A stretch of DNA of 64,000 nt. Origin: Stutzerimonas stutzeri. GTDB lineage: Bacteria > Pseudomonadota > Gammaproteobacteria > Pseudomonadales > Pseudomonadaceae. The notes under the pieces are model-generated. The model was not told where the DNA came from. It worked only from the letters and a program-made list of their open reading frames with translations, and searched no databases. Within the stretch, counting starts at the first letter, position 1, and every line of letters begins with the position of its first letter. The stretch is taken from positions 3,920,001-3,984,000 of the forward strand of contig NZ_CP036186.1 of assembly GCF_015291885.1 (NCBI RefSeq). Direction: 5' to 3'. Below, in pieces: positions 12,304 to 47,511 of the stretch. Made by a program: the position numbers and the translations under genes.

Positions 12304-12343
12304 GACCGCTACCTGCCGGCGCACAATGCGCAGGCAGGCGGTC
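12304..12343. terminator. Candidate hairpin terminator between vfr and trpC
   Basis: Interrupted long stem GACCGC-x-CTGCC ... GGCAG-GCGGTC between convergent genes; it reaches the trpC stop codon. No clear T-tract, so Rho-independent function is uncertain. Confidence 0.4.
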
Positions 12344-13184
12344 ACTCCGGGTCGGCAGCGACAGGGGCCACGCGGCCGCGCGAACGATCGGGGTAGAACA
12401 GGCGCTGCAGTTCTACGCCAGGCTGTTCGGCACGCATGAATGCCTCGCCCACCAGGAATGCATACACCTGGTTGATCTCCATCAGCTCGACATCGGCACG
12501 ATTGAAGATCCCGCTCTCGGTCACCACCAGACGATCCTTCGGAATCCGCGGCAACAGATCTAGCGTAGTTTCCAGACTGACTTCGAACGTATGCAGGTTG
12601 CGGTTGTTGACGCCCACCAGCGGTGTTTCCAGACGCAGCGCCCGTTCTAGTTCGGCAGCGTCGTGCACCTCTACCAGCACGTCCAGCCCCTGCTGCTTCG
12701 CTACCACTGCCAGTTCGTGCATACGCGCATCGTCCAGTGCCGCGACGATCAGCAGAATGCAGTCGGCGCCAAGCGCTCGCGCCTCGACCACCTGATACGG
12801 GTCGATCATGAAATCCTTGCGAATCACCGGTAGCGAGCAGGCCGCACGCGCTTGCTGCAGATACTCATCAGCACCTTGAAAGAAATCGATGTCGGTCAGT
12901 ACTGACAGGCAGGCGGCACCACCGGCTTCGTAGCTGGCTGCGATCTCGGCAGGCAAAAACGGATCACGTATGACGCCTTTGCTTGGCGAAGCCTTCTTTA
13001 CCTCTGCAATGACGGCCGGTTCCTTGCTGCGCACACGCTGCTCCAGTGCGGCGGCAAAGCCACGCACGGGATCGGCAACAGCCGCCCGCTGCTCGAGCTC
13101 GCTCAACGCGACCTGGCGACTGCGCTGGGCAACCTCCTCGAACTTGCGTGCGATGATCTTTTCCAGCACGGTCTGCACGCTCAT
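12342..13184 (-). CDS. trpC: Indole-3-glycerol-phosphate synthase
   Basis: Closes the indole ring from CdRP in tryptophan synthesis. The 280-aa TIM barrel shows the IGPS signature [13 protein letters not shown], the catalytic lysine in [10 protein letters not shown] and glutamate in VTESGI. Monofunctional, with no trpF fusion. The start overlaps the trpD stop by 4 bases (ATGA), so translation is coupled in trpGDC. Confidence 0.96.
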
Positions 13185-14227
13185 TTCTGGTTCTCCTGCT
13201 TGAACACTGCGGTGAAGGACACCAGTTCCTCCAGCTTGTCACGCGCCAGCCCGGTGCTGAGCGCGTCATGGGCCATCTCGACACCCTGCTTCAGGCTGCT
13301 CGCCAGATCGGCTGCGTAGAGCGCAGCGCCAGCATTGAGCACGATCATGTCGGCAGCCTTCTGACCGTTCTCGCTCTGCCGACGGCCTAGCGCATCACGG
13401 ATCAAGACCAGCGAGCCCTGTGCATCCTCGACGTTCAAACCGATCAGGCTCTGGCTCTTGATGCCGAAGTCTTCCGGCTGAACGCTGTATTCGCGGATTT
13501 CACCGTCTTTCAGCTCGGCGACATGCGTCGGCGCCGCGAGGCTGATTTCATCCAGCCCATCCTGCGCATGCACCACCAGCACATGCTTGCTGCCCAGCCG
13601 CGCCAGCACTTCGGCCATCGGCCGGCACAACGCCTTGCTGAACACACCAAGCACCTGATGGCGGACGCCGGCCGGGTTGGCCATGGGGCCGAGGATATTG
13701 AACAGGGTCCGCAGGCCGAGTTCACGGCGCGGGCCGGCTGCGTGCTTCATGGCGCCATGATGGGCCGGCGCGAACATGAAGCCGACGCCGACGGTATCGA
13801 CGCTGCGCGCCACCTGTTCGGGCGTCAGGTCGAGAAAGACCCCGGCCGCCTCGAGCAGATCGGCGCTGCCACTCTTGCCGGATACCGCGCGGTTACCGTG
13901 CTTGGCCACCTTGCCGCCAGCGGCCGCAACGACGAAGGAGGCGGCAGTGGACACATTGAAGATATTCATCCCGTCGCCACCGGTGCCACAGGTGTCGACA
14001 AGCTTGTCGGTGTCGAAACGCACCGGGGCGGCCAGCTCACGCATGACCTGCACCGCGCCGACGATCTCGTCGATGGTTTCGCTCTTCATGCGCATGCCCA
14101 TGAGGAACGCACCGACCTGCGCATCAGTGCATTGACCGGTCATGATCTGACGCATCACCGCCTGCATCTCTTCGGTGGTCAGGTCCAGCTGACCGACGAT
14201 GCGGTTGAGGGCTTCCTTGATATCCAT
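13181..14227 (-). CDS. trpD: Anthranilate phosphoribosyltransferase
   Basis: Transfers the phosphoribosyl group of PRPP to anthranilate. The 348-aa protein has the PRPP/Mg signature [19 protein letters not shown] and the second motif in [19 protein letters not shown]. The start shares one base with the trpG stop (TGATG) and the end overlaps trpC by 4 bases. Confidence 0.96.
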
Positions 14228-14820
14228 CAGCGCACGCCTCCGGTCTGCTTCAGAAAATTCGCGAACAGCTCATGGCCCTGTTCGGTGAGGATCGATTCGG
14301 GGTGGAACTGCACACCCTCTATATTCAGCGTCTTGTGTCGCAAGCCCATGATCTCGTCGACCGAGCCATCGTCCAGCTGGGTCCAGGCGGTGATTTCCAG
14401 GGAGTCGGGCAACGTCTCGCGCTTGACCACCAGCGAGTGGTAACGGGTGACGGTCAGCGGATTGTTGAGCCCGGCGAACACACCCTGATCATGGTGAAAC
14501 ACCGGACTGGTCTTGCCGTGCATGGCCTGACGGGCGCGCACCACATCGCCACCGAAGGCCTGACCAATGCTCTGGTGGCCGAGGCAGACGCCGAGAATCG
14601 GCAACTTGCCGGCGAAATGACGAATCAGCTCCAGCGACACGCCGGCCTCGTTCGGCGTGCACGGGCCGGGCGAGACGACGATACGCTCCGGATTCAGCGC
14701 TTCGATTTCGGCCACGCTCAGTTCGTCGTTGCGCACCACTTTCACGTCAGCGCCCAGTTCGCCGAGGTACTGCACGACGTTGTAGGTAAAGGAATCGTAG
14801 TTATCGAGCATTAGCAGCAT
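14227..14820 (-). CDS. trpG: Anthranilate synthase component II (glutamine amidotransferase)
   Basis: Supplies ammonia from glutamine to TrpE. The class I triad is visible: Cys in [12 protein letters not shown], and His and Glu in GVQFHPESI. The family start is MLLML(I)DNYDSFTYN, hence 14820; an in-frame ATG at 14829 adds three residues. Both ATGs and the AGAGG upstream lie on the island side of the integration core, so the translation start region of this housekeeping gene is island-derived. TrpE, its partner subunit, is now 30 kb away. Confidence 0.95.
14801..14820. other. Island attachment core, trpG side
   Basis: Twenty bases at the start of trpG (minus strand ATGCTGCTAATGCTCGATAA) match 45123-45142 directly after trpE at 17 of 20 positions in the same orientation. 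Together they bound a segment containing a P4-type integrase, so they are read as the two att cores. The three mismatches argue for an old integration or an attP that only resembles the host site. Confidence 0.65.
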
Positions 14821-14872
14821 TTTTAGCATAACCTCTTGATTTTACTGCTTTTTTATTAGCTTCTACTGCCAT

Positions 14873-14893
14873 GATACCCGCATATATACCCGC
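14873..14893. other. Candidate integrase arm-type sites, trpG end
   Basis: Two direct copies of ATACCCGC (14874-14881 and 14886-14893) lie about 55-70 bp inside the trpG-side core. The same octamer occurs three times beside the integrase start at the other end, as expected for arm sites of one tyrosine recombinase. Confidence 0.5.
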
Positions 14894-14987
14894 TTTTTAT
14901 TGTGCTGCGGTGAGCTAGGGGTAAGCAGCCGAAGGCTAGGGAAGCAGGAACGAACAAGGACGGACCGGACGAGCCGGCAAGGAGAAG

Positions 14988-15032
14988 TCAGGCGCGCCAG
15001 CGCCAACGGGCCAGGGCCTTGATGACTCGCAT
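14988..15032 (-). CDS. trp-type leader peptide upstream of trpGDC
   Basis: A 14-residue reading frame, [14 protein letters not shown], carries two closely spaced Trp codons and lies about 170 bp before trpG. It differs by one residue from the frame before trpE (46701-46745), with 43 identical consecutive bases (14985-15027 against 46698-46740). Attenuation of both trpE and trpGDC is known in P. putida. A longer version starting at 15071 (27 aa) is open in frame. A textbook terminator with a T-tract is not evident after it. It sits on the island side of the att core. Confidence 0.7.
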   Translation of the reverse strand: MRVIKALARWRWRA

Positions 15033-15083
15033 CAGGAGGGTGCTGCTAGTGGTCACGGCGATATCTCGCATTGCTATCCCGGC

Positions 15084-15112
15084 ACAGTAGCCGACAGCGC
15101 AATACGGTGCAA
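15084..15112 (-). promoter_or_regulatory. Candidate promoter for the trpG leader
   Basis: Minus strand: -35-like TTGCAC (15107-15112), a 17-base spacer, -10-like TACTGT (15084-15089), about 50 bases before the 14-residue leader. Each box matches consensus at four of six positions, so this is only the best candidate in the 250-bp gap between the leader and the next gene. Confidence 0.35.
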
Positions 15113-18558: not shown

Positions 18559-18599
18559 GGCCAGTCCATGCAGTTCGCGCTGTGTGGCTGGCCTTTTTT
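18559..18599 (+). terminator. Hairpin with T6 after yqaJ
   Basis: Outer arms GGCCAG (18559-18564) and CTGGCC (18588-18593) with an inner CAG...CTG pair are followed directly by TTTTTT. Confidence 0.5.
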
Positions 18600-18618
18600 G
18601 CTTACAAGGAGCGCCATC

Positions 18619-19515
18619 ATGCTCAAAGGTCTGGCAATTACTCCGCCCGTGCTCGGGCGCATCTCTATCGGCAAGGTCGTCGAGAAGAACGGCAAGCGGC
18701 TGCCGGAGAAAGACGATCAATTCACCATCACCTCTCAGGTACAAGGCAAGGACGGTTGGCTACTGCACCCGCTGAATGACGAGCTGCGCCAGGGCAAAGA
18801 CGACAAGCTGCGCAGCATCCCGGTGCGCTTGTTATTCAACGAGCCTGAACTGAATTTCCGCGCTGACTACACCTTGTTTGATCGGCAGAACGGTCGACCA
18901 ATGTGTGTCGGCAACGGTGAGACCTGCAAACGTATCGGTAAGGATGGCGTTCAATCGCTGCCCTGCCCGTCACCCGATGCCTGCCCGCTGGCCAAGGGCA
19001 ACGCCTGCAAGCCCTACGGACGAATGAACGTAGTGATTGGCGATGAGGATGCGCTGGGCAGCTTCGTGTTTCGCACCACGGGCTTCAACAGCATCCGCAC
19101 GCTGATAGCCCGGTTGCAGTACTTCCGGGCCATATCAGGTGATCGTCTGGCGTGCCTGCCGCTGGAGCTGCGCCTACGTGGCAAATCCACCCGACAGAGC
19201 CATGGTACGCCGATCTTCTACGTCGATCTGACGCTGCGCAGCGGTATGACCGTGGAGCAAGCATTACTCACTGCGCGTGAGTTGGATGAGGCGCGTCAGG
19301 CGGCTGGTTTTGATCAAGCCGCACTGGATGCCACCGCGCGTGTCGGCCTGGGCAACGGCATCTTCGAGGACGACGGTGAGGACAGCAGCGCCATTGCTGA
19401 AGAGTTCTTTCCGGACGGTCAGCCCGCCGCGTCGAAACCCGACAGCACCGTTCACACCCAGTCACTCGCTGAGAAGCTCGAAGCCCAATCCCAACAGCTC
19501 GAACCTTCTGCCTAA
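18619..19515 (+). CDS. Cys-cluster protein (annotated in relatives as hydrolase or metal-binding protein)
   Basis: A 298-aa protein with five closely spaced cysteines (MCVGNGETC, then LPCPSPDACPLAKGNACKP) that could bind zinc or an Fe-S cluster. After it come GRMNVVI and FRTTGFNSIRTL. This layout, a Cys cluster then R-x-N-V then a T-x-x-x-N-S-I segment, resembles phage recombination-directionality-factor-like proteins (PF18897), which is a guess from pattern only. It follows yqaJ after a terminator, with its own AAGGAG. The acidic C-terminus (EDDGEDSSAIAEEF) is likely disordered. Confidence 0.6.
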   Translation: MLKGLAITPPVLGRISIGKVVEKNGKRLPEKDDQFTITSQVQGKDGWLLHPLNDELRQGKDDKLRSIPVRLLFNEPELNFRADYTLFDRQNGRPMCVGNGETCKRIGKDGVQSLPCPSPDACPLAKGNACKPYGRMNVVIGDEDALGSFVFRTTGFNSIRTLIARLQYFRAISGDRLACLPLELRLRGKSTRQSHGTPIFYVDLTLRSGMTVEQALLTARELDEARQAAGFDQAALDATARVGLGNGIFEDDGEDSSAIAEEFFPDGQPAASKPDSTVHTQSLAEKLEAQSQQLEPSA

Positions 19516-25218: not shown

Positions 25219-26325
25219 TTAACCCGGCAATCAAATACACCAAATCATGCTGCGTAGGCGATACGTGGATGCCGGAAATAAGAACGGATTCTTTGAGGGC
25301 GTAATTGCAATCGTCTCATGACCGAGCGAACACGCCTTTCCAGTTCGTCCTGATTACGCGCCGGCAAGCCCGTGCGAACCTGATGTTTCAAATCACAATT
25401 CAAATACTCGTCAGGGTTCAACTCCGGGGCGTAGGCCGGCAAGAAGAACAGTTCGATTTGCTCTTTGCGGTCGCCAACCCAGGCGCTCACCTTTTTGCTG
25501 TGGTGTACGCGCAGGTTGTCGAGAATCAGGAACACCTTGCGGCCCTGAGCATCGCGAATCAGGCGACTCAGGAAGCGAATCAGCACTGGGGCTGTCAGCG
25601 TTTCCCGATACAGCATGAAGCGCAGTTTGCCCCGATTGGTCACGGTGGAAATCATGTTGGTGGAAAAACGACTGCCGCTGACCAGGCGCACCGGCGTTTC
25701 GCCAATAGGGGCGTAGCTGCGGCCAGCATGGCTGTCACTGCGCATACCGGTTTCGTCGCCCCACTGAATCTCACCATTCTCAGCCCTGGCCCGCTGTGCG
25801 ATGCGTGGATATTCATTATCCAGCCAGTGCTGAACCACTTCAGGTTTCTGCTGATAAGCCCGATGCAGTGGGCGCTGCGGGGTGTAGCCCCAACGCTTGA
25901 GGTATTCACCAACCGTTCGAACCGGCATGAGAAAACCACAGCGCTGGCGGATCAGTTCTCGCACCGCATCACGCGTCCAGAGCGCAAAGCCGAGTTTGAG
26001 TTGGTCGGGCATCTTATCGGTCATCAAGGTGCGAATCAGCACTTCCTGGCTGGAGCTCAAACTGCGGCGATCACCCTGGCGCACACCACGCTGGCCGCCG
26101 GCAATGGCAGCCTTTTCGCCTTTATGTTCTGCGACCTGCGCCCAGTGAGCAATAGTGCGGGGGTGAACACCAACCGCTTCGCCAATAGCCTTGTAGGTGT
26201 AACCCTGCTCACGCATGCGTAGGGCCGTGGAGCGCTTTTCACGTTGTTCTTGGGGGCTGAGTTTACGGGCATCTATTTTCATGGAGACAGATTATCTAAT
26301 ATGCCCTATTTATTTGCCAGGTTAA
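25219..26325. mobile_element. IS630-family insertion sequence, copy 1
   Basis: 1107 bp with short inverted ends (TTAACCCGGCAA at the left, TTAACCTGGCAA reversed at the right) and TA target copies at 25217-25218 and 26326-26327. Its transposase gene is on the minus strand. Identical in protein and in all compared bases to copy 2 at 40735-41841. Confidence 0.92.
25245..26282 (-). CDS. IS630 transposase, copy 1
   Basis: A 345-aa Tc1/mariner-type transposase: N-terminal helix-turn-helix (MREQGYTYKAIGEAVGVHPR), catalytic D in QWGDETGMRSD, D in FLILDNLRVHHS and E in PAYAPELNPDEYLN. Full length. It lies inside the PAS-GGDEF-EAL gene and reads against it. Confidence 0.94.
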   Translation of the reverse strand: MKIDARKLSPQEQREKRSTALRMREQGYTYKAIGEAVGVHPRTIAHWAQVAEHKGEKAAIAGGQRGVRQGDRRSLSSSQEVLIRTLMTDKMPDQLKLGFALWTRDAVRELIRQRCGFLMPVRTVGEYLKRWGYTPQRPLHRAYQQKPEVVQHWLDNEYPRIAQRARAENGEIQWGDETGMRSDSHAGRSYAPIGETPVRLVSGSRFSTNMISTVTNRGKLRFMLYRETLTAPVLIRFLSRLIRDAQGRKVFLILDNLRVHHSKKVSAWVGDRKEQIELFFLPAYAPELNPDEYLNCDLKHQVRTGLPARNQDELERRVRSVMRRLQLRPQRIRSYFRHPRIAYAA

Positions 26326-31700: not shown

Positions 31701-31746
31701 AGAGTGCAATGGCCTCGTAGCGATAGGGCTGGTTCTCAATGCTCAT
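28708..31746 (-). CDS. hsdR: Type I restriction enzyme, R subunit
   Basis: This 1012-aa motor/nuclease cleaves unmethylated DNA after translocation. The N-terminal PD-(D/E)xK nuclease shows as RFDVTVLVNGLPMVHIELK, Walker A as HTTGSGKT, the DEAD-like box as FDECHRSQFGD and motif III as FGFTGTPIF. The C-terminal helical part would bind the methylase. Its ATG overlaps the hsdS stop by 4 bases. The last gene of the operon. Confidence 0.95.
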   Translation of the reverse strand: MSIENQPYRYEAIALSNESTVVAEFLPDALGVRETGYQSEAALESAFIEQLQRQAYEYLPISSEAELVANLRARLEQLNKIEFSDTEWQGFFTTCIAGTNDGILEKTARLQEDHVQVLKRDDGSSKNIYLIDKANIHNNVLQVINQYETPTGEQGGKHATRFDVTVLVNGLPMVHIELKRRGVDIREAFNQINRYQRDSFWAGCGLFEYVQLFVISNGTLTKYYSNTVRDGHLKEQSGKRSKSKTSNSFSFTSWWADARNQPITELVGFTKTFFAKHSLLNVLTKYCVFDVDRKLLVMRPYQIVAAERILQRIATSTNHRQLGTVAAGGYIWHTTGSGKTLTSFKAAQLARGLPDIDKVLFVVDRKDLDYQTMREYERFEKGAANSNTSTSVLQKQLEDPNARIIITTIQKLSRFVAKNKKHPVYDAHVVVIFDECHRSQFGDMHSEITRVFKRYHLFGFTGTPIFAKNSGTGGNPLRRTTEQAFGDKLHTYTIVDAINDKNVLPFRIDYINTLKMQARIKDKQVSAIDTERALLAPERISQIVGYIREHFDQKTKRASTYRHDGKRVAGFNSLFACASIDAARRYYAEFAAQQQALPEAQRLKVGLIYSFAANEDDEDGLLGEEEFEAEGLDQSSRDFLDAAIKDYNALFSTSFDTSADKFQNYYKDLSQRLKKRELDLVIVVNMFLTGFDATTLNTLWVDKNLKAHGLIQAYSRTNRILNSVKTYGNIVSFRNLEQETNDALALFGNKDAKGIVLLKPYAEYYAEYQARVGELLDKFPLGQAIVGEAAQKAFIKLFGSILRLKNILTAFDDFAGNEILSERQYQDYQSVYLNLYAEFRTTSEAEKESINDDVVFEIELIKQVEINVDYILLLVEQYLKKKGSGEDKEIRAAIERAINASPSLRNKKDLIVQFVESVNTRAKVDAQWQSFMAAKKTEELERIITEENLNAEAAREFVEQAFRDGSIPTAGTAITKILPPVSRFSQGNGHAAKKQTVLGKLATFFERYFGLV

Positions 31747-32984
31747 GCGGCTTCCTTGAATGTGAGCAAACGGTCGCGGTAGTAGGCGTACTGCCGACGG
31801 CGAGCGGCGATCTCGGCAGGCAGACCGATGGAGATGTCATTTACCAGCGCATCGAATTTGTCGAGGATGGCGACGATGCGTGCTTGCTCCTCAGGCGAGG
31901 GAACGGGGATGGCCAACTTGGCCAGGCTTTCTGCGGACAAGCGTTTCACCTTGGCTCGGGCGACAAACTTGTTCTTCTCCGCGTGAAACGCCGTGCTCTG
32001 GAAGTAATAGGAAACGAACCGAGGATTTAGCGAATGCCGGAAGGCAAAGCAGTCGTCATGAATCGCCACTTCGTCATGGCCGAGCCATGCCACAGCCTTG
32101 CCCACATCCTCGACCGTCTCGCCCACGCCAGCGATTATCAAATCGCCTGGCTGCGCAAAGCGGAGCGACGAAGCCATATCAGCGCGCACATGTGAGACCG
32201 TCTTTTCGGTAGCAGTGCCGTACTGCGTGTAGATGTCGCCATAGTGGATACAGGGCACCCCGTCTTCGACGTAGTCAGCCTTGGTAAAACGCCGACCTCG
32301 GAAGAACTCGCCGACCTCGGCCATCGCGGCCCAGCGAATATCTTGATCGCTGAAAGCGAGCAAGGCGTCGCGGTAGTACGTGTACTGCCTGCGACGCGCC
32401 TCAAGCTCCGCCTCAAGCTCCGCCTCAAGCTCCGTAAACGCGTCAAGAATTTTCACAATTTCCTGCTGAATTTCTTTAGGCGGAATTGGAATACGCACCT
32501 TCAAAAATCGCTTCTTAGAAATATTGAAGCGCGTCACACCACTCGCGCTCATGACAATCTGCTGGCGAACGACATCGCTCCGAAAAATGTATTTCGAAAA
32601 ACCTGGCAAAAGCAGTGCATCGTCATTGAACCGGTAGCCGAAGCAGAAGCTATTGAGAAAAGTGGCTTCCGATGGCTTCGCCAAGACTACCGCTGACATT
32701 CCTACTTCATCAGGTGTCTCCGATGAGCCCGTGAAAAGCACATCACCAATCGCCAGAGAATTCTGGCTCTCGTCAGGACCGACTTTGACAAAGTCATCGA
32801 GGTCGAGATTGACCGCTAGGTTATTGAAGATGTTCTTGTAGGAAACAAATCGGGCATTACCGTCGCTGAAGTCAGCCTTAGTTTTTCCGGTGAGCCCGCC
32901 GTAGGTTACACCCAACTCTTCGAGGGCCTTGAACTCCACCCCATCCGGGCAAAGCTCAGCGATCAGCGTATCGATCCGGCTCAT
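31743..32984 (-). CDS. hsdS: Type I restriction enzyme, S (specificity) subunit
   Basis: A 413-aa protein with two target-recognition domains, each ending in a conserved helix (EARRRQYTYYRDALLAF near residue 205 and IAARRRQYAYYRDRLL at the end). Each domain reads one half of a split DNA site. The first spacer helix contains LEAE repeats coded by three 12-bp units (32399-32434), the same position where the TAEL repeats of EcoR124 set the gap length. Four-base overlaps join it to rhuM upstream and hsdR downstream. Confidence 0.92.
   Translation of the reverse strand: MSRIDTLIAELCPDGVEFKALEELGVTYGGLTGKTKADFSDGNARFVSYKNIFNNLAVNLDLDDFVKVGPDESQNSLAIGDVLFTGSSETPDEVGMSAVVLAKPSEATFLNSFCFGYRFNDDALLLPGFSKYIFRSDVVRQQIVMSASGVTRFNISKKRFLKVRIPIPPKEIQQEIVKILDAFTELEAELEAELEARRRQYTYYRDALLAFSDQDIRWAAMAEVGEFFRGRRFTKADYVEDGVPCIHYGDIYTQYGTATEKTVSHVRADMASSLRFAQPGDLIIAGVGETVEDVGKAVAWLGHDEVAIHDDCFAFRHSLNPRFVSYYFQSTAFHAEKNKFVARAKVKRLSAESLAKLAIPVPSPEEQARIVAILDKFDALVNDISIGLPAEIAARRRQYAYYRDRLLTFKEAA
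32399..32434 (-). repeat. Three tandem 12-bp units inside hsdS
   Basis: Plus-strand unit CCTCAAGCTCCG occurs three times without interruption (32399-32410, 32411-32422, 32423-32434), coding ELEA-type turns of the spacer helix. Gain or loss of a unit keeps the frame. Confidence 0.85.
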
Positions 32985-33982
32985 GGCTTTTTCTTCCCGG
33001 TGATTTTCTTCTGCACCGTCTTTACGGTTTCCAGATAGGCCGCCTCCACCTCACTCGGCTGCTCGGCCAAGTGTGCACGGAACTTGGCGTACTCCGTTTC
33101 GGCGTGAGCAATGGCCTGCTGATGACTGACTTTGCCGGCACCTTCCAGGGCCTTGCCGCCCATGGCCAGGATCAGTTGCTCTAAGTGCGCGAGCCAATCC
33201 TTCATATAGGTCGGCTCGTGGTTCATGGCACGGAACTCGGCGGCGTCGAAATAGGCCGAGACCAGCGTATTCAGGCGTTTTAGCTCATCGGCGTTGAGGT
33301 AATTCTTGGCGTTGGTGACTTCGGCCTTGGTGGGCTGCTTGCCGCTGAAGGACAGCAGGCCCATAAAGGGCTTACCAGCATCGGCACGCTGTCTGACCAC
33401 TTCCGCCGCCGTCTGGCCATGGGCCGCGTAATGCAGCTTGTTCTGCACGGCCTTGAAGAACACCACGCTGGCTTCGGCCTTGGGGTCGTAATCCACGCTG
33501 GTGGCGTACAGGTCGAGCACCTGACGGTAGAGCACCTTCTCGCTGGAGCGAATGTCCCGGATGCGATCCAGCAGCTCTTTCCAATAGCTGCCGCCGCCCA
33601 GGTTCTTCAGGCGCGCGTCATCCATGGTGAAGCCCTTGACCAGGTATTCGCGTAGGCGCTCGGTGGCCCAGATGCGGAAGCGCGTGCCCTGCTGCGACTT
33701 GACCCGGTAGCCGACCGAGATGATGACGTCGAGGTTATAGAAGTTGGTCGGCTTGGTAGAAAATTCGGAAATTCCGATTTTTCTCATCACCTGCTCCGGC
33801 ACCAACTCGCCTTCCTCGAAGACGTTCTTGATGTGCTCGTTGATGGTCGACTTGGCCTTGCCGAACAGTTCCGCCATCTGCTCCTGGGTCAGCCAGACCG
33901 TATCGCCGTCTAGCCGCACATCGATGGCGGTTGCATCGCCACGTTGGTAAAGAATGATCTCCCCTGCTGGCTGCTCGCTCAT
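32981..33982 (-). CDS. RhuM-family protein within the type I restriction operon
   Basis: The 333-aa Virulence_RhuM protein (PF13310) begins with the family pattern IILYQRGDATAIDVRLDGD, then VWLTQEQMAELF, and continues through SKPTNFYNLDVIISVGYRV. RhuM homologues are common between hsdM and hsdS genes, but their function is not established. Here it has 4-base ATGA overlaps with hsdM before it and hsdS after it, so it is made in step with the restriction complex and is unlikely to be a chance passenger. Confidence 0.88.
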   Translation of the reverse strand: MSEQPAGEIILYQRGDATAIDVRLDGDTVWLTQEQMAELFGKAKSTINEHIKNVFEEGELVPEQVMRKIGISEFSTKPTNFYNLDVIISVGYRVKSQQGTRFRIWATERLREYLVKGFTMDDARLKNLGGGSYWKELLDRIRDIRSSEKVLYRQVLDLYATSVDYDPKAEASVVFFKAVQNKLHYAAHGQTAAEVVRQRADAGKPFMGLLSFSGKQPTKAEVTNAKNYLNADELKRLNTLVSAYFDAAEFRAMNHEPTYMKDWLAHLEQLILAMGGKALEGAGKVSHQQAIAHAETEYAKFRAHLAEQPSEVEAAYLETVKTVQKKITGKKKP

Positions 33983-35559
33983 GCCTGGGCTCCTTCCAGA
34001 TCCGCAACGATGGCATCGATCTGCTTTCGCAGCTCCGTTTGCCGGGCAACGATGCCGCTGATTTTCTCGTTGAGCTCACGAATGTCTACCGCATCGCGGG
34101 TGTCGGCCTGCTCGACATAGCTGGAGACTGCGATGTTGTAGCCGTTGGCGGCGATGTCGCCGTTCTCCACCATGCGGGCGAAATGGTCGATGCTCTGGCG
34201 AGCGGTGAATGCGTCGAGGATTTTCTCTTGGTGCTCGCGCAACAGCTTGTTCTTGTTGCCGCCGCGCACGAACAGGCTGGAGGCGTCGATGAACAGCGTG
34301 GCGTTGTCGCGCTTGGACTTCTTCAGCACGACGATGCAGGTCGCGATGGTGGTGCCGAAGAACAGATCCGGCGGCAACTGAATAACGGCATCGACGTAGT
34401 TGTTGTCGATCAGGTACTTGCGAATCTTGGCTTCGGCACCGCCTCGATAGAGCACGCCGGGGAATTCGACAATGGCAGCCGTGCCGTTGACCGCCAGCCA
34501 GCTGAGAATGTGCAAGGTGAAGGCTAGGTCGGCCTTGCTCTTGGGCGCGAGCACGCCGGCCGGAGCGAAGCGCGGGTCGTTGATCAGCAGCGGGTTGGCA
34601 TCGCCCTCCCATTTAATCGAGTACGGCGGATTGGAAACGATAGCCTCGAACGGCTCGTCATCCCAGTGCGCCGGGTCGGTTAGCGTGTCGCCGTGGGCGA
34701 TGTTGAACTTCTCGTAGTTCACGTTGTGCAGGAACATGTTGATCCGGCACAAGTTGTAGGTGGTGAGGTTGATTTCCTGGCCGTAGAAGCCCTGACGCAC
34801 CTTGTTGTGCCCCAGCACCTTGGAGAAGCTGAGCAACAGCGAGCCGGAGCCGCAAGCTGGGTCATAAACCTTGTTGACCTCTTTCTTGCCCACCACGGTG
34901 ATGCGGGCCAGCAGTTCGGAGACTTCCTGCGGGGTGTAGAACTCGCCACCGGACTTGCCGGCAGTGGAGGCATACATCTGCATCAGGTATTCGTAGGCGT
35001 CGCCGAACAGGTCGATGCTGTTGTCGGCAAAATTGCCCGAGCTGTTGCCCAGCGGCAGATCGCCGATAGCGTCGAGCAGCTTGACCAATTTTTCGTTGCG
35101 CTTGGCCACGGTGGGGCCGAGCTTGCTGCTGTTGACGTCCAGGTCATCGAACAGCCCCTTGAAGTCGTCCTCGCTACCAGCGCCCAACGCCGAGGCCTCG
35201 ATGTCCTTGAACACTTTCGACAGGGTTTCGTTGAGGTTTGGGTCATGGCGGGCGCGCTTGCGCACATTGGCGAACAGTTGCGACGGCAGGATGTAGAAGC
35301 CCTTTTCCTGAACCGTTTCGTAACGGCCCACGATAGCGTGGGCGTCTGCCAAATCGCTGTAGTCAAAATCCGCACTCCCCGCGCGGCGCTCCTGTTCGTT
35401 GAGGTAGTTGGTCAGGTTCTCTGAGATGAAGCGGTAGAACAGCATGCCCAGCACGTAGGTCTTGAAGTCCCAGCCATCAACGCTGCCACGCAGGTCGTTG
35501 GCGATGCGCCAGATAGTTTTGTGCAGTTCGGCGCGTTCAAGATCTCTGGTGTTGCTCAT
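33979..35559 (-). CDS. hsdM: Type I restriction enzyme, M (methyltransferase) subunit
   Basis: An N6-adenine methylase of 526 aa. The N-terminal HsdM helical domain (WRIANDLRGSVDGWDFKTYV) is followed by SAM motif I in YDPACGSGSLLL and the catalytic NPPY in IVSNPPYSIKWEG. The C-terminal coiled tail contacts HsdS. First gene of the tightly coupled hsdM-rhuM-hsdS-hsdR operon, 68 bp after the WYL regulator in the same direction. Confidence 0.95.
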   Translation of the reverse strand: MSNTRDLERAELHKTIWRIANDLRGSVDGWDFKTYVLGMLFYRFISENLTNYLNEQERRAGSADFDYSDLADAHAIVGRYETVQEKGFYILPSQLFANVRKRARHDPNLNETLSKVFKDIEASALGAGSEDDFKGLFDDLDVNSSKLGPTVAKRNEKLVKLLDAIGDLPLGNSSGNFADNSIDLFGDAYEYLMQMYASTAGKSGGEFYTPQEVSELLARITVVGKKEVNKVYDPACGSGSLLLSFSKVLGHNKVRQGFYGQEINLTTYNLCRINMFLHNVNYEKFNIAHGDTLTDPAHWDDEPFEAIVSNPPYSIKWEGDANPLLINDPRFAPAGVLAPKSKADLAFTLHILSWLAVNGTAAIVEFPGVLYRGGAEAKIRKYLIDNNYVDAVIQLPPDLFFGTTIATCIVVLKKSKRDNATLFIDASSLFVRGGNKNKLLREHQEKILDAFTARQSIDHFARMVENGDIAANGYNIAVSSYVEQADTRDAVDIRELNEKISGIVARQTELRKQIDAIVADLEGAQA

Positions 35560-40734: not shown

Positions 40735-41841
40735 TTAACCCGGCAATCAAATACACCAAATCATGCTGCGTAGGCGATACGTGGATGCCGGAAATAAGAA
40801 CGGATTCTTTGAGGGCGTAATTGCAATCGTCTCATGACCGAGCGAACACGCCTTTCCAGTTCGTCCTGATTACGCGCCGGCAAGCCCGTGCGAACCTGAT
40901 GTTTCAAATCACAATTCAAATACTCGTCAGGGTTCAACTCCGGGGCGTAGGCCGGCAAGAAGAACAGTTCGATTTGCTCTTTGCGGTCGCCAACCCAGGC
41001 GCTCACCTTTTTGCTGTGGTGTACGCGCAGGTTGTCGAGAATCAGGAACACCTTGCGGCCCTGAGCATCGCGAATCAGGCGACTCAGGAAGCGAATCAGC
41101 ACTGGGGCTGTCAGCGTTTCCCGATACAGCATGAAGCGCAGTTTGCCCCGATTGGTCACGGTGGAAATCATGTTGGTGGAAAAACGACTGCCGCTGACCA
41201 GGCGCACCGGCGTTTCGCCAATAGGGGCGTAGCTGCGGCCAGCATGGCTGTCACTGCGCATACCGGTTTCGTCGCCCCACTGAATCTCACCATTCTCAGC
41301 CCTGGCCCGCTGTGCGATGCGTGGATATTCATTATCCAGCCAGTGCTGAACCACTTCAGGTTTCTGCTGATAAGCCCGATGCAGTGGGCGCTGCGGGGTG
41401 TAGCCCCAACGCTTGAGGTATTCACCAACCGTTCGAACCGGCATGAGAAAACCACAGCGCTGGCGGATCAGTTCTCGCACCGCATCACGCGTCCAGAGCG
41501 CAAAGCCGAGTTTGAGTTGGTCGGGCATCTTATCGGTCATCAAGGTGCGAATCAGCACTTCCTGGCTGGAGCTCAAACTGCGGCGATCACCCTGGCGCAC
41601 ACCACGCTGGCCGCCGGCAATGGCAGCCTTTTCGCCTTTATGTTCTGCGACCTGCGCCCAGTGAGCAATAGTGCGGGGGTGAACACCAACCGCTTCGCCA
41701 ATAGCCTTGTAGGTGTAACCCTGCTCACGCATGCGTAGGGCCGTGGAGCGCTTTTCACGTTGTTCTTGGGGGCTGAGTTTACGGGCATCTATTTTCATGG
41801 AGACAGATTATCTAATATGCCCTATTTATTTGCCAGGTTAA
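40735..41841. mobile_element. IS630-family insertion sequence, copy 2
   Basis: 1107 bp, same ends as copy 1, TA target copies at 40733-40734 and 41842-41843, same orientation as copy 1 at an offset of exactly 15,516 bp. Confidence 0.93.
40761..41798 (-). CDS. IS630 transposase, copy 2
   Basis: Residue-for-residue identical to the transposase at 25245-26282 (345 aa, DDE residues present). Identity of the copies points to recent transposition within this island. Confidence 0.94.
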   Translation of the reverse strand: MKIDARKLSPQEQREKRSTALRMREQGYTYKAIGEAVGVHPRTIAHWAQVAEHKGEKAAIAGGQRGVRQGDRRSLSSSQEVLIRTLMTDKMPDQLKLGFALWTRDAVRELIRQRCGFLMPVRTVGEYLKRWGYTPQRPLHRAYQQKPEVVQHWLDNEYPRIAQRARAENGEIQWGDETGMRSDSHAGRSYAPIGETPVRLVSGSRFSTNMISTVTNRGKLRFMLYRETLTAPVLIRFLSRLIRDAQGRKVFLILDNLRVHHSKKVSAWVGDRKEQIELFFLPAYAPELNPDEYLNCDLKHQVRTGLPARNQDELERRVRSVMRRLQLRPQRIRSYFRHPRIAYAA

Positions 41842-43765: not shown

Positions 43766-44965
43766 TCAACGGCGCCCCTTTGAAATATTCATATCAATAT
43801 CATCAGCCCAGGCCTGCATCATCTGGCGTCGCTCATCCAGATATTCCGCCTGGTTGTAACTTGCGCGCACCTTGTTTCTCTCGGCATGCGCCAACTGACG
43901 CTCGATAACATCTGCGCGATATCCCATTTCGTTCAGCATTGTCGAAGCTGTTGCGCGGAAGCCATGAGCCGAAAAACCGATACTGTCCTTCCCATTGAAT
44001 CCCATGCGCTCAAGCGCACGGTTCAGCGTCGTTGCCGTCATGCATTCGTTCGGATTGCGAAGGTTCGGGAAAAGCTGGCGACGACCGCCCGTATGGGTGG
44101 CTAGCTCACGGAGCAGTGCGACTGCCTGACTCGATAGAGGAACGATGTGCGGCTCACGCATCTTCATGCGCTCACCCGGGATTCGCCATTCAGCACGATC
44201 CAGGTCGAATTCAATCCACTCCGCCTTGCGCAGCTCTACAGTGCGAACGAATGTGAGCAGCATCAGACGTAGCGCGATTACCGTGACTCTGTAGCCACCG
44301 TATTGCTCCAAGGCCTTAGAGAACTCCGCTATCTGATCACGGGTGAGCGGCTTGTGGTGCTGCACCCTGGGACGCTGGATAGCCCCCTTCAGAGCCGCAG
44401 CCGGGTCGGCATCTGCACGCAATGTCGCGACGGCATATCGAAACACTGCCGATGACCACTGCCTTACGAGCAAGGCAACTGTGGCGGCCCCTCGCCCTTC
44501 AATTCGATTGAGGATCTCAAGCAAATGCGCAGCAGAAACATTGCGTATCGGCAACTTCCCAACAAAGGGGAAGACGTCGGCTGCCATGAACCGCTCAACC
44601 TGCCGTAAGTAGTATGGCGTCCAACTTGGGGCTTTTTTCTTGATCCACTCGCGGGCAACCGCTTCGAAAGTGTTCGCATTGGCAGCGCTGTTAGCCAGTC
44701 GCTCAGCCTGCCGATTGTGCGATGGATGGATGCCCTGACGAATCAGCGGCTTGGCCTTTTCCCGCGCATCACGCGCATCGGCCAGGCCGATCTCCGGATA
44801 GCCACCAATTGCAAACACGTTCTCCTTACCGTCTATGCGATAGCGCAAACGCCATAGCTTGGTACCGGTCGGGCGAATCTCCAGGTAAAGCCCACCACCA
44901 TCGGTGAGCTTGAGGGGTTTATCGCCAGCCTTAGTGTTGCGGATCTTGGCATCGGTAAGAGGCAT
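43766..44965 (-). CDS. int: P4-type tyrosine recombinase (island integrase)
   Basis: A 399-aa integrase with N-terminal DUF4102 arm-binding domain (MPLTDAKIRNTKAGDKPLKL), core-binding domain and catalytic domain. Active-site residues are visible: R in LTFVRTVELRKAEW, H-x-x-R in SAHGFRATASTML, and the tyrosine in ASYNQAEYLDERR. Length and motifs indicate an intact enzyme. It faces away from trpE, with att core and arm-like repeats between its start and the trpE stop. P4-type integrases usually use tRNA genes; here the site is the start of trpG. Confidence 0.95.
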   Translation of the reverse strand: MPLTDAKIRNTKAGDKPLKLTDGGGLYLEIRPTGTKLWRLRYRIDGKENVFAIGGYPEIGLADARDAREKAKPLIRQGIHPSHNRQAERLANSAANANTFEAVAREWIKKKAPSWTPYYLRQVERFMAADVFPFVGKLPIRNVSAAHLLEILNRIEGRGAATVALLVRQWSSAVFRYAVATLRADADPAAALKGAIQRPRVQHHKPLTRDQIAEFSKALEQYGGYRVTVIALRLMLLTFVRTVELRKAEWIEFDLDRAEWRIPGERMKMREPHIVPLSSQAVALLRELATHTGGRRQLFPNLRNPNECMTATTLNRALERMGFNGKDSIGFSAHGFRATASTMLNEMGYRADVIERQLAHAERNKVRASYNQAEYLDERRQMMQAWADDIDMNISKGRR

Positions 44966-44968
44966 AGT

Positions 44969-45006
44969 GCGGGTATCCGTACTTTGATACCCGCAACGAT
45001 ACCCGC
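44969..45006. other. Candidate integrase arm-type sites, trpE end
   Basis: One inverted (44969-44976) and two direct (44987-44994, 44999-45006) copies of ATACCCGC lie just upstream of int. The octamer recurs at 14873-14893 beside the other core. Confidence 0.5.
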
Positions 45007-45007
45007 A

Positions 45008-45142
45008 TTATCCGTAGATTCCAACGGACGCCATGGACGCCAACGAACGTGAAACCCGCTTAAACATTGGGCTTGATGGGGATGCGTAGACGCCAACGGA
45101 CACCACAAGAAGCCAATGCTGCTTATCCAGCATCAACAGCAT
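45008..45142 (-). pseudogene. Relic of the trpG 5' end / attachment core beside trpE
   Basis: Starting 2 bases after the trpE stop, ATGCTGTTGATGCTGGATAA codes MLLMLDK, the trpG start, then passes into unrelated sequence and stops after 44 codons. A Shine-Dalgarno AGGAG inside the trpE 3' end sits 8 bases before this ATG. It shows that trpG, or an attP mimic of it, once followed trpE directly. The core is 45123-45142. Confidence 0.65.
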
Positions 45143-45144
45143 GA

Positions 45145-46629
45145 TCAGTTCTCCTGCTGGTCGCGTTCGGCCAGGGCCACCGCACGAAACATGGCGCGGC
45201 GCTTGTTCAGCGTCTCTTCCCATTCGAGTGCCGGCTGCGAGTCGGCGACGATGCCGGCACCGGCCTGCACGTGCAGCTCGCCGTCCTTGATCACCGCGGT
45301 ACGAATTGCGATAGCGGTATCCATGTTGCCGTTCCAGGCGAGGTAGCCGACCGCGCCGCCGTAGACGCCACGCTTGACCGGCTCGAGTTCGTCGATGATT
45401 TCCATGGCGCGAATCTTCGGTGCACCTGAGAGCGTGCCGGCCGGCAGGATCGCGCGCAGCGCATCCATCGCCGTCAATGGCGCCTTGAGCTGGCCGGTGA
45501 CGTTGGAAACGATGTGCATGACATTCGAATAGCGCTCGATGACCATCTTCTCGGTAAGCCGCACCGTGCCGGTCTCGGCGACACGACCGACGTCGTTGCG
45601 GCCCAGGTCGATCAGCATCAGGTGTTCGGCGAGCTCCTTGGCATCGCTGAGCAGGTCCTGCTCCAACGCCAGATCAGCTTCTTCGTTGGCGCCGCGTGGA
45701 CGCGTGCCGGCGATGGGGCGGACCGTAACCAGGCCTTCCTCGACCCGCACCAGCACTTCCGGCGACGACCCCACCACGTGGAAATCGCCGAAGTTGAAGA
45801 AGTACATGTAGGGCGTCGGGTTGAAGCAGCGCAGCGCGCGGTAGAGATCGATCGGCGCGGCCTTGAACGGGATCGACATGCGCTGGGAAATCACCACCTG
45901 CATGCAGTCGCCGGCGAGGATGTAGTCCTTGATGCGGTTGACCGCCTGCTCGTAATCCTCGCGGCTGAAGCTGGAGCGGAAGGTCGGTTCGGCACCATTG
46001 CTCTTTTCGAAATCCAGGCCCAGGCGCGGCGTGATCGACTGGCGCAGCTTCGCCCGCAACGCCTGCAAGCGAGCCTGACCCGCCTCGTAGGCGTCCGGCT
46101 GCGACGGGTCGACCAGCACGATGCAGTGCAGCTTGCCGGCGAGGTTGTCGAATACCACCACGGCGTCGGAAACCATCAGCAAGATATCCGGTGTGCCCAG
46201 CGGATCCGGGTTGGGGCAATTGCCCAGTTTGCGCTCGACATAGCGCACGCTGTCGTAGCCGAAATAGCCGACCAGCCCGCCGTTGAAGCGCGGCAGGCCT
46301 TCGACCGGCGCGACGCGGTAGCGCTGCTGGAAGGACTCGACGAAGGCCAGCGGATCCTCGACCTCACAGGCCTCGGTCTCGATGCCATCGGTGGCCACGC
46401 TGATGCGGTGATCCTGCACGCGCAGCACGGTGCGGCATGGCAAGCCAATGATCGAATAGCGCCCCCACTTCTCGCCGCCCTGAACGGATTCGAGCAGATA
46501 CGAGTTTGGCGCATCGGCCAGTTTCAGGTACAGCGACAGTGGCGTGTCGAAGTCGGCAAGGGTTTCGAACGACAGGGGGATGCGGTTATGGCCTTCGGCG
46601 GCCAAACGCAGGAATTCTTCGCGGGTCAT
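45145..46629 (-). CDS. trpE: Anthranilate synthase component I
   Basis: Makes anthranilate from chorismate together with TrpG. A 494-aa protein with the chorismate-binding signature [17 protein letters not shown] and [11 protein letters not shown]. The start [10 protein letters not shown] is family-typical; an open frame upstream (40 codons) overlaps the leader peptide region and is rejected. Expression is probably attenuated through the leader at 46701-46745. Confidence 0.95.
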
Positions 46630-46700
46630 GTCAGCCTCGTGGTCTGAGGAGGGTTCGAACGAACAACGGCAAACGCGCCGGCCTGGCCGGCAGGAAAAAG

Positions 46701-46745
46701 TCAGGCGCGCCAGCGCCAACGGGCCAGGGCCTTGATGACTTTCAT
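46701..46745 (-). CDS. trp-type leader peptide upstream of trpE
   Basis: [14 protein letters not shown], 14 residues with two Trp codons, ending 71 bases before trpE. Right after the stop a perfect GCCGGCC-A-GGCCGGC hairpin follows (46678-46692), though with little T after it. The same peptide with one change precedes trpG. An in-frame GTG upstream would add a third Trp. Known biology: trpE attenuation in P. putida. Confidence 0.75.
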
Positions 46746-46809
46746 CCATTGTCTGCGGGTGAGCACCACGAGCGGATCTCTTCGGTGGGTCAAAAAGAGT
46801 CCGGCCACA

Positions 46810-47511
46810 CTAGCGCAGGCCCGGAGCCGAAGCAACCAGCTCGCGCAGGTCGTCGAGCACCAGCGCCGGCTGCTCATCCGCGATGGGCTCGCCGTGGTTG
46901 TAGCCGTAGGTAAGCGCGACACAGCGTACTGTCGCGGCCTTGGCAGCCCGTACGTCGTTGCGCGAGTCACCAACGAATAGCGATTCGCCGGGCGCAACGC
47001 CCGCCTTGTCCATGACCCAGAACAGCGCCGCCGGATCGGGTTTCTGCTGCGGCAAGGTATCGCCGCCGACCAGCCAATCGAAGTAACCGGCCAGCCCCTT
47101 TTCCTCCAGCAGCGGTTCGATGAACTGCGCCGGTTTGTTGGTGATGATCGCCAGCTTCACCTCGCGCTCGCGCAGCCAGTCCAGGCATTCACGAACGCCC
47201 GGATAGACAGTGGTCAGCTCGTGGCCGCCGGAGTAGGCCTGCATGAACAGCGCCAGCGCCTCGTCGGCCAACTCGTCGCTTACACCGTCATGGTCCAGCT
47301 GCCCGGCCAATGCGCGACGCACCAGCACGCGCGAGCCATTGCCGACCCAGTCGCGTACCCGCTCGATGCCGGCAGGCTCGCGACCGAGCAGCATCAGCAT
47401 CTTGTCCACTGCGGCGGCCAGGTCCGGTACCGAGTCCATCAGAGTGCCGTCCAGATCGAACATCACCAGCCGTGGCAGCATGCCGTCGAACAGTTGCTCC
47501 AGGCGAGTCAT
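46810..47511 (-). CDS. gph: Phosphoglycolate phosphatase
   Basis: HAD-family phosphatase of 233 aa that removes 2-phosphoglycolate. Motif [13 protein letters not shown], motif II IITNKP and motif [14 protein letters not shown] are present. The ATG overlaps the rpe stop by 4 bases. A longer open frame exists only because the rpe region happens to be open out of frame. Confidence 0.93.

Follow-up and report, generated by a model that had tools for sequence, protein, structure and literature searches.

Is the short tryptophan-rich reading frame that precedes trpG at this locus a part of the host operon, or of the island that cuts this operon? The window, i.e. the whole stretch of 64,000 nucleotides of Stutzerimonas stutzeri contig NZ_CP036186.1 analysed here, has trpC, trpD and trpG together on the minus strand and trpE 30 kb away. 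A frame ending in ARWRWRA and a stop codon precedes both trpG (15032–14988) and trpE (46745–46701) on the same strand.

The island and its insertion site

The genes trpC (12342–13184) and trpD (13181–14227) were named from their place and reading; trpG (14227–14829) was taken from the ORF list; and trpE (45145–46629) was identified by Pfam. Between trpG and trpE lies an island of 30.3 kb (14807–45133), delimited by its att cores and characterised by the Pfam matches of 19 of its ORFs. These include transposase genes, type I restriction-modification, YqaJ, DUF932, a Gp3-like recombination-directionality-factor-like protein (18568–19515, plus strand; PF18897) and a tyrosine integrase (43766–44965, minus strand; PF00589 and PF13356), whose relatives stand behind the trpG core. 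No phage tail family was found among these 19 ORFs, which are the larger ones only and four of which had no match. Two DDE_3 transposase genes of 345 aa each (25245–26282 and 40761–41798) have identical Pfam scores and share 300 identical bases at one end, as a duplicated IS. In the type I restriction-modification operon (31743–35559), a gene of the RhuM family separates the specificity gene from the modification gene.

The trpE-side att core ATGCTGTTGATGCTGGATAAG (45122–45142, minus strand) is a remnant of the host trpG start; it lies behind the trpE stop codon and is followed by the integrase gene, so that the integrase adjoins one att site. The trpG-side core ATGCTGCTAATGCTCGATAAC (14800–14820, minus strand) was recognised from three empty sites (L001–L003), those of Stutzerimonas stutzeri BAL361, S. 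kunmingensis 7850S and a MAG, in which the end of trpE overlaps trpG without a leader between them. The trpG-start remnant behind trpE and the uninterrupted trpE–trpG of these three loci place the insertion in the first codons of trpG, hence inside the 5′ end of a gene whose empty site is known. The crossover lies within the shared ATGCT (14807–14811 and 45129–45133). The island supplies trpG with a new in-frame N-terminus, since codons one to six (MLKMLL) are island sequence, where the empty site has MLL. A motif pair GCGGGTAT, probably arm-type sites that the integrase would bind, occurs between the leader and trpG (14874–14893, minus strand) and again before the integrase gene (44987–45006, minus strand); similar pairs are found in the equivalent place in related elements.

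The leader frame starts 203–227 nt upstream of trpG. As the att core is the trpG start itself, downstream of the leader, the leader lies inside the island, where the first-pass annotation had placed it by the two cores. The same island end is present over 2.3 kb on a contig of P. fluvialis ASS-1 (L006). In steps of 250 bases, its identity to the window is 0.90–1.00 over 17105–14856, with 0.976 (15355–15106) and 0.988 (15105–14856) in the steps that hold the promoter, the leader and the arm motifs; from the trpG start it is 0.856, 0.872 and 0.824 within trpG, and it goes down to 0.68 in trpD and trpC. In another genus, as judged by group code, an element whose integrase is 89% identical to that of the window (L295 in genome G028) shares 335 bp of the same end at 78.5% identity, leader included, and is unlike the window beyond those 335 bp. 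By the GCGGGTAT pair between leader and trpG, the identity break in P. fluvialis and the end shared with L295, the leader is carried by the element. A host origin in this lineage was rejected on account of the leaderless empty sites and the same identity break. The first-pass annotation had reasoned that island-free strains with this leader directly before trpG would make it host sequence. In the window's lineage this did not apply (L001–L003, and none of the 107 adjacent loci surveyed below); elsewhere such strains exist, as other Pseudomonas without a visible integrase have a leader directly before trpG.

The leader module and its origin

The trpG leader and the trpE leader match exactly over 43 bases (14985–15027), within a direct repeat of 74 nt with 86% identity (14960–15033 and 46673–46746). 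The first-pass annotation had rested on these 43 shared bases, and they were borne out. A simple calculation puts an exact match of 43 bases far outside what chance would give, and the 74-nt repeat is the longest in the window except for the duplicated IS end. A leader core of 26 nt has exactly two copies in the own genome (4.64 Mb, one contig; up to three mismatches allowed).

The frame before trpG spans 14988–15032 from ATG and 14988–15056 from an in-frame GTG eight codons upstream. The latter is probably the conserved start, which would give a peptide of 22 residues: a GTG stands at the equivalent place in 56 of 59 trpG-type and 66 of 81 trpE-type representative leaders. The host trpE leader ORF (46701–46769, minus strand) likewise has an ATG at 46745 and in-frame GTG codons at 46769 and 46766. 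In having a short leader frame with tandem Trp codons, predicted to be translated, before the trp gene, the module resembles ribosome-mediated trp attenuators.

A promoter-like sequence, TTGCAC-N17-TACTGT (15084–15112, minus strand), was found before the trpG leader by consensus match and is conserved in trpG-type modules; its counterpart before the trpE leader, also a consensus match, is TTGCTT-N17-TAGTGT (46807–46835, minus strand). The promoter score, a measure of sequence match only, has a mean of 6.05 in 59 trpG-type modules versus 3.71 in 300 random stretches. Behind the leader stop codon a hairpin, GCCGG-CUCGU-CCGGU (14964–14978, minus strand), is predicted by folding, and the 36 nt after the stop fold on average better than shuffled sequence (mean z −1.38 in the 59 trpG-type and −0.77 in the 81 trpE-type leaders). 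Folded as a whole, the window's two leaders are not more stable than their shuffled counterparts (z 0.60 and −0.29). The RNAalifold consensus structures differ between the two types; that of the trpG type has two hairpins, with the stem after the stop present in 58 of 59 leaders by a stem count without control. Compensatory change was seen in one of nine pairs for the trpG type and in none of 16 for the trpE type, the pairs being mostly invariant. Behind the hairpins there is no clear T run, which leaves a terminator, and an antiterminator mutually exclusive with it, putative. Rfam matched no trp leader in the window; its sole match there at gathering score was the gabT RNA (RF01738; 49609–49670, minus strand).

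The trpE-type and trpG-type modules share one layout, composed of a promoter-like TTGCNN-17-TANTGT, a GTG start, a peptide of about 22 residues and a hairpin, and in both types the GTG stands 15 codons before the alanine of ARWRW. In trees of 81 trpE-type and 60 trpG-type modules, which are unrooted and built from short sequences, the label changes once; the 69-nt leader frame alone also gives one change, and the promoter part alone gives three. By these trees the island leader is of the trpG type, and its peptide and promoter are closest to those of other leaders of this type. P. fluvialis has the same 45 bases in its leader. The island leader had initially been taken for a copy of the host leader; this idea is not supported, and a recent copy of the own host's trpE leader was rejected in view of the P. 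fluvialis bases and of the single change between types. On this evidence the leader is better described as one of trpG type that the element carries and that is related to the trpE leader, and not as a host-leader copy.

Among 81 pairs of leaders from the same genome, the 43 bases are the longest identical run (next 27, median 20), and at a position where 47 of the 59 trpG-type representatives encode His, the island leader has Leu (CTG), as in the trpE type. The majority fraction by codon position in these 59 is 0.939, 0.949 and 0.809, with the third position most variable; in codons 8–13 most first and second letters are set by the pattern used for sampling, so that the free part consists of codons 1–7, codon 14 and silent positions. 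The module belongs to an old trpG-type branch common to elements and to Pseudomonas with a resident separate trpGDC. The elements may have founded the separate trpGDC, or they may have captured the module from hosts already having it.

Separated trpG genes and related elements

The region before trpG was read in 221 loci: the window, 80 loci (the best 80 of 584 relatives) and 140 further loci, 55 of them from the window's genus and 85 of 98 matching in a second genus. Loci were called separated when the gap exceeded 150 nt or trpE was out of reach, and a leader was defined as a small frame, at most 480 nt away, that contains W-W or W-x-W. Before deduplication there were 107 separated and 114 adjacent loci. 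All 107 separated loci had a leader, ARWRW-like in 101 and WWRF-like in six (L009, L036, L071, L072, L149 and L175, of which L009 and L175 look like one contig). In two flagged adjacent loci (L080 and L161) the frame proved to be the trpE end read out of frame, and both were recorded by hand as leaderless. Removal of 14 duplicates left 207 distinct loci; a tandem-Trp leader is present in each of the 100 separated loci and in none of the 107 adjacent ones. A quickly built trpG tree implies 32 switches of state, and the 13 independent pairs taken from its supported branches are all in agreement (sign test, p = 0.00024). The window fits this rule, by which a tandem-Trp leader precedes trpG exactly where trpE has been split off, over many independent switches.

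A trpG core remnant behind trpE was absent from 84 of the 85 separated loci with trpE at hand (control 0/1580), so that these splits cannot be ascribed to an integrase element. By the reading of examples, some Pseudomonas have an esterase-like autotransporter gene in the gap, and eight Stutzerimonas loci have a GGDEF-EAL gene there. In P. putida ASAD (L012), the 2.5-kb gap contains by reading such an autotransporter gene, which we take to be EstP; in P. aeruginosa PA7 (L077), the leader that precedes trpG is of the trpG type. Six adjacent loci (L008, L017, L018, L019, L022 and L056) have gaps of 76–106 nt with a AATTCAAGAGGTT-like box before trpG, as in element ends, and these boxes are possibly the scar of a lost insert.

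Leaders of the WWRF(Q/L/S) kind with a TAGGAAGCGGC-like stretch precede trpG in L009, L036, L071, L072, L149 and L305–L309, loci from Pseudomonas relatives and from other families of the order. They were found in one of 38 near relatives, at an already-known locus, and in five of 341 genomes of the order, in all five before trpG; four other families of the order are represented. The three WWRF loci searched in Rfam gave no match.

Relatives of the integrase at E ≤ 1e-100, with up to six candidates per genome scored, occur in at least 23 of 298 genomes. Ten integrases stand behind a trpG core, nine retrieved with the search expression (L267–L271, L273–L275 and L280) and one by eye, with an altered core (L272). 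Seven of them directly follow trpE (L267–L270, L273, L274 and L280), and L271 and L272 follow another leader. The trpG end is readable in nine of the ten genomes; G001, which begins at the core, was left out of the leader count. The first-pass annotation had proposed searching other islands with this integrase for the leader, and among the elements with a trpG-start integrase the outcome was divided. Seven of the nine have it: the window, G028, G197, G160, G233 and G178 with the ARWRW type and G237 with the WWRF type. In G127 (L297) and G025 (L301), whose integrases are 89–90% identical to that of the window, no tandem-Trp leader was found within 480 nt of trpG, though arm motifs and core are present; the leader is thus not obligatory. 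Integrase and trpG lie 138 kb apart in G127 and 210 kb apart in G028, a stretch that may contain several elements, and the trpG end of G127 may belong to another element.

In G160 a single contig carries trpE, core, integrase and, about 41 kb on, a leader MRVIKGHARWRWRA and trpG. Terminase, portal, head protease, major head, tape measure and tail fibre families were matched among ten ORFs searched, and by this content the G160 element is a phage-like prophage. In G233, trpG (L165) is preceded by the leader MRVIKGHARWRWRA, and a related integrase follows another leader, MRLFKAHARWRWRA, and a core (L271). Here an element presumably inserted at a site that already had a leader and added one of its own, a linkage of L165 and L271 that is inferred because they lie on two separate contigs. 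The WWRF leader of G237 (L149, L280) goes with a more distant integrase, the integrases that accompany ARWRW and WWRF leaders being 49% identical.

The leader pattern was found in 42 stretches of IMG/VR. In 24 of these it runs into a full trpG, and in 13 it is followed by a trpG core and then, 328–394 nt on, by an integrase match (weak, with 28–39% identity, in L113 and L114); four stretches end at the contig end and one stands before trpE. The same search in INPHARED gave one match, OQ658366.1 (L125), deposited as a phage, whose sequence by reading is instead a pyocin region of P. aeruginosa that includes trpG and trpD; its trpG is annotated as carbamoyl phosphate synthase small subunit. A plasmid search for the leader returned nothing but one weak, irrelevant match. 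Judged from these loci, the finding is wider than the window, in that related Pseudomonas phages and islands carry similar leaders.

Two further groups of integrases were noted. The own genome has a second one, 44% identical (G000:C1:288347-289507; L291), by reading behind a tRNA-like sequence, and sister integrases with 53–55% identity (L276–L279) stand behind a sequence that reads like the start of what is presumably dinB, which would be another 5′-end target.

Weighing of explanations and comparison with known systems

Most probably, the leader is part of a site-specific element that carries a replacement module for the trpGDC it cuts off, and this module was not copied from the present host. 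The tyrosine integrase would recombine in the first trpG codons, which overlap the trpE end in the empty site, and insertion would sever trpGDC from the promoter and leader of trpE. At its trpG-proximal end, the element would bring a sigma-70-like promoter, a 22-codon Trp-Arg-Trp leader, a hairpin and in-frame trpG codons. We infer that the new promoter drives trpGDC and that the leader attenuates it in response to tryptophan, whereby both halves of anthranilate synthase would stay co-regulated; such co-regulation of trpGDC with trpE is likely. At the level of sequence, the comparisons establish element ownership of the leader, in-frame rebuilding of trpG, homology of the modules and recurrence in other elements.

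That the leader is old host sequence, with the island merely inserted upstream, would agree with the many Pseudomonas that have a leader directly before trpG without a visible integrase at the site, and with the WWRF-type leaders before trpG in other families of the order. In the window's lineage, however, the empty sites are leaderless, the core lies downstream of the leader with the probable arm motifs between, and the identity with P. fluvialis breaks at the core, which leaves such an origin highly improbable. We give similarly little credit to a leader that serves the element, e.g. as an attachment-region signal, and not trpGDC: it does adjoin the probable arm motifs, but it is absent at adjacent and present at separated loci, even those without a visible integrase.

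The element may instead have taken its end from a host with a separate, attenuated trpGDC, in which case the leader would be a passenger and only the promoter would matter. The nearness of the island leader to trpG-type leaders and the two related elements without a leader speak for this. It is nevertheless unlikely, given that the third codon positions of the 59 representatives vary more than the first and second within the free part defined above, that the leader is kept in 100/100 separated loci, and that a second leader type accompanies a more distant integrase in G237. A recent gene conversion between the trpE and island leaders in this host was considered for the 43-base identity, which is the longest run of the 81 pairs and goes with a trpE-type Leu (CTG) in the island leader. 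The P. fluvialis copy has the same 45 bases, so any exchange predates the spread, and the 69-nt frames still split by type with one change; this reading is quite improbable. Returning to the replacement module, a broader proposal would be that such elements are armed with the attenuator of the operon they cut, that the separate, attenuated trpGDC of P. aeruginosa and P. putida is their legacy and not an invention of the host, and that ARWRW and WWRF leaders are convergent. We offer this only tentatively, as possible rather than expected. One integrase family with and without the leader, and with a known empty site, provides a natural test of the weight of attenuation.

In P. putida, trpE and trpGDC are reportedly subject to attenuation, according to the title of a 2001 paper listed among the references of PMC8297930, and separate leaders likewise stand before trpE and trpGDC. 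The arrangement of P. putida is resident, whereas the window leader comes with a mobile island into a lineage with a leaderless empty site. The first-pass annotation had called this form of repair undescribed, which is true in part: in the open-licence literature, no paper on an element carrying the attenuator of the operon it cuts was found among the matches listed, but separate attenuation of trpGDC is, by that title, reportedly known. The rebuilding of a gene's 5′ end is also known, as the excerpted text of PMC8409611 attests. In P. aeruginosa, premature 3′ ends lie beside a GTG uORF in the trpGDC leader, according to a figure legend of PMC8297930, and by the same source they are predicted, above the cut-off, only in azithromycin-treated biofilms.

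The trpE–trpG gap is, in the passages available of PMC13075995 and PMC7344871, the site of the P. aeruginosa pyocin cluster, and an extract of PMC8319346 has it searched as a tailocin site. The window island shares this site. Pyocin clusters are marked by an absent integrase (PMC13075995, in the same passages), whereas the island has integrase, restriction-modification and transposase genes and thus does not correspond to a pyocin cluster. The 'prophage' WX-3, which contains trpG in the portion consulted of PMC12456005, may be the P. aeruginosa pyocin region; as it contains trpG, its deletion phenotypes may reflect loss of host trpG, which its authors suggest for motility.

The closest parallels are SXT in prfC and IMEVchUSA3 in dusA, which insert at the 5′ end of the gene and give it a new promoter and an in-frame N-terminus, as summarised in sections of PMC8409611. 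For dusA, expression was measured and was reduced after insertion (same sections), whereas the window island is known from sequence alone. Like the window island, these elements insert in the 5′ end of a gene and rebuild its N-terminus; unlike theirs, the target in the window is internal to a biosynthetic operon, and the island also carries a leader of the operon's type. Bearing on the putative excision and transfer of the island are its recombination-directionality-factor-like gene and the nearly identical island end in P. fluvialis. If the proposed role is true, the repair of genes by elements extends from a promoter and first codons to metabolic regulation.
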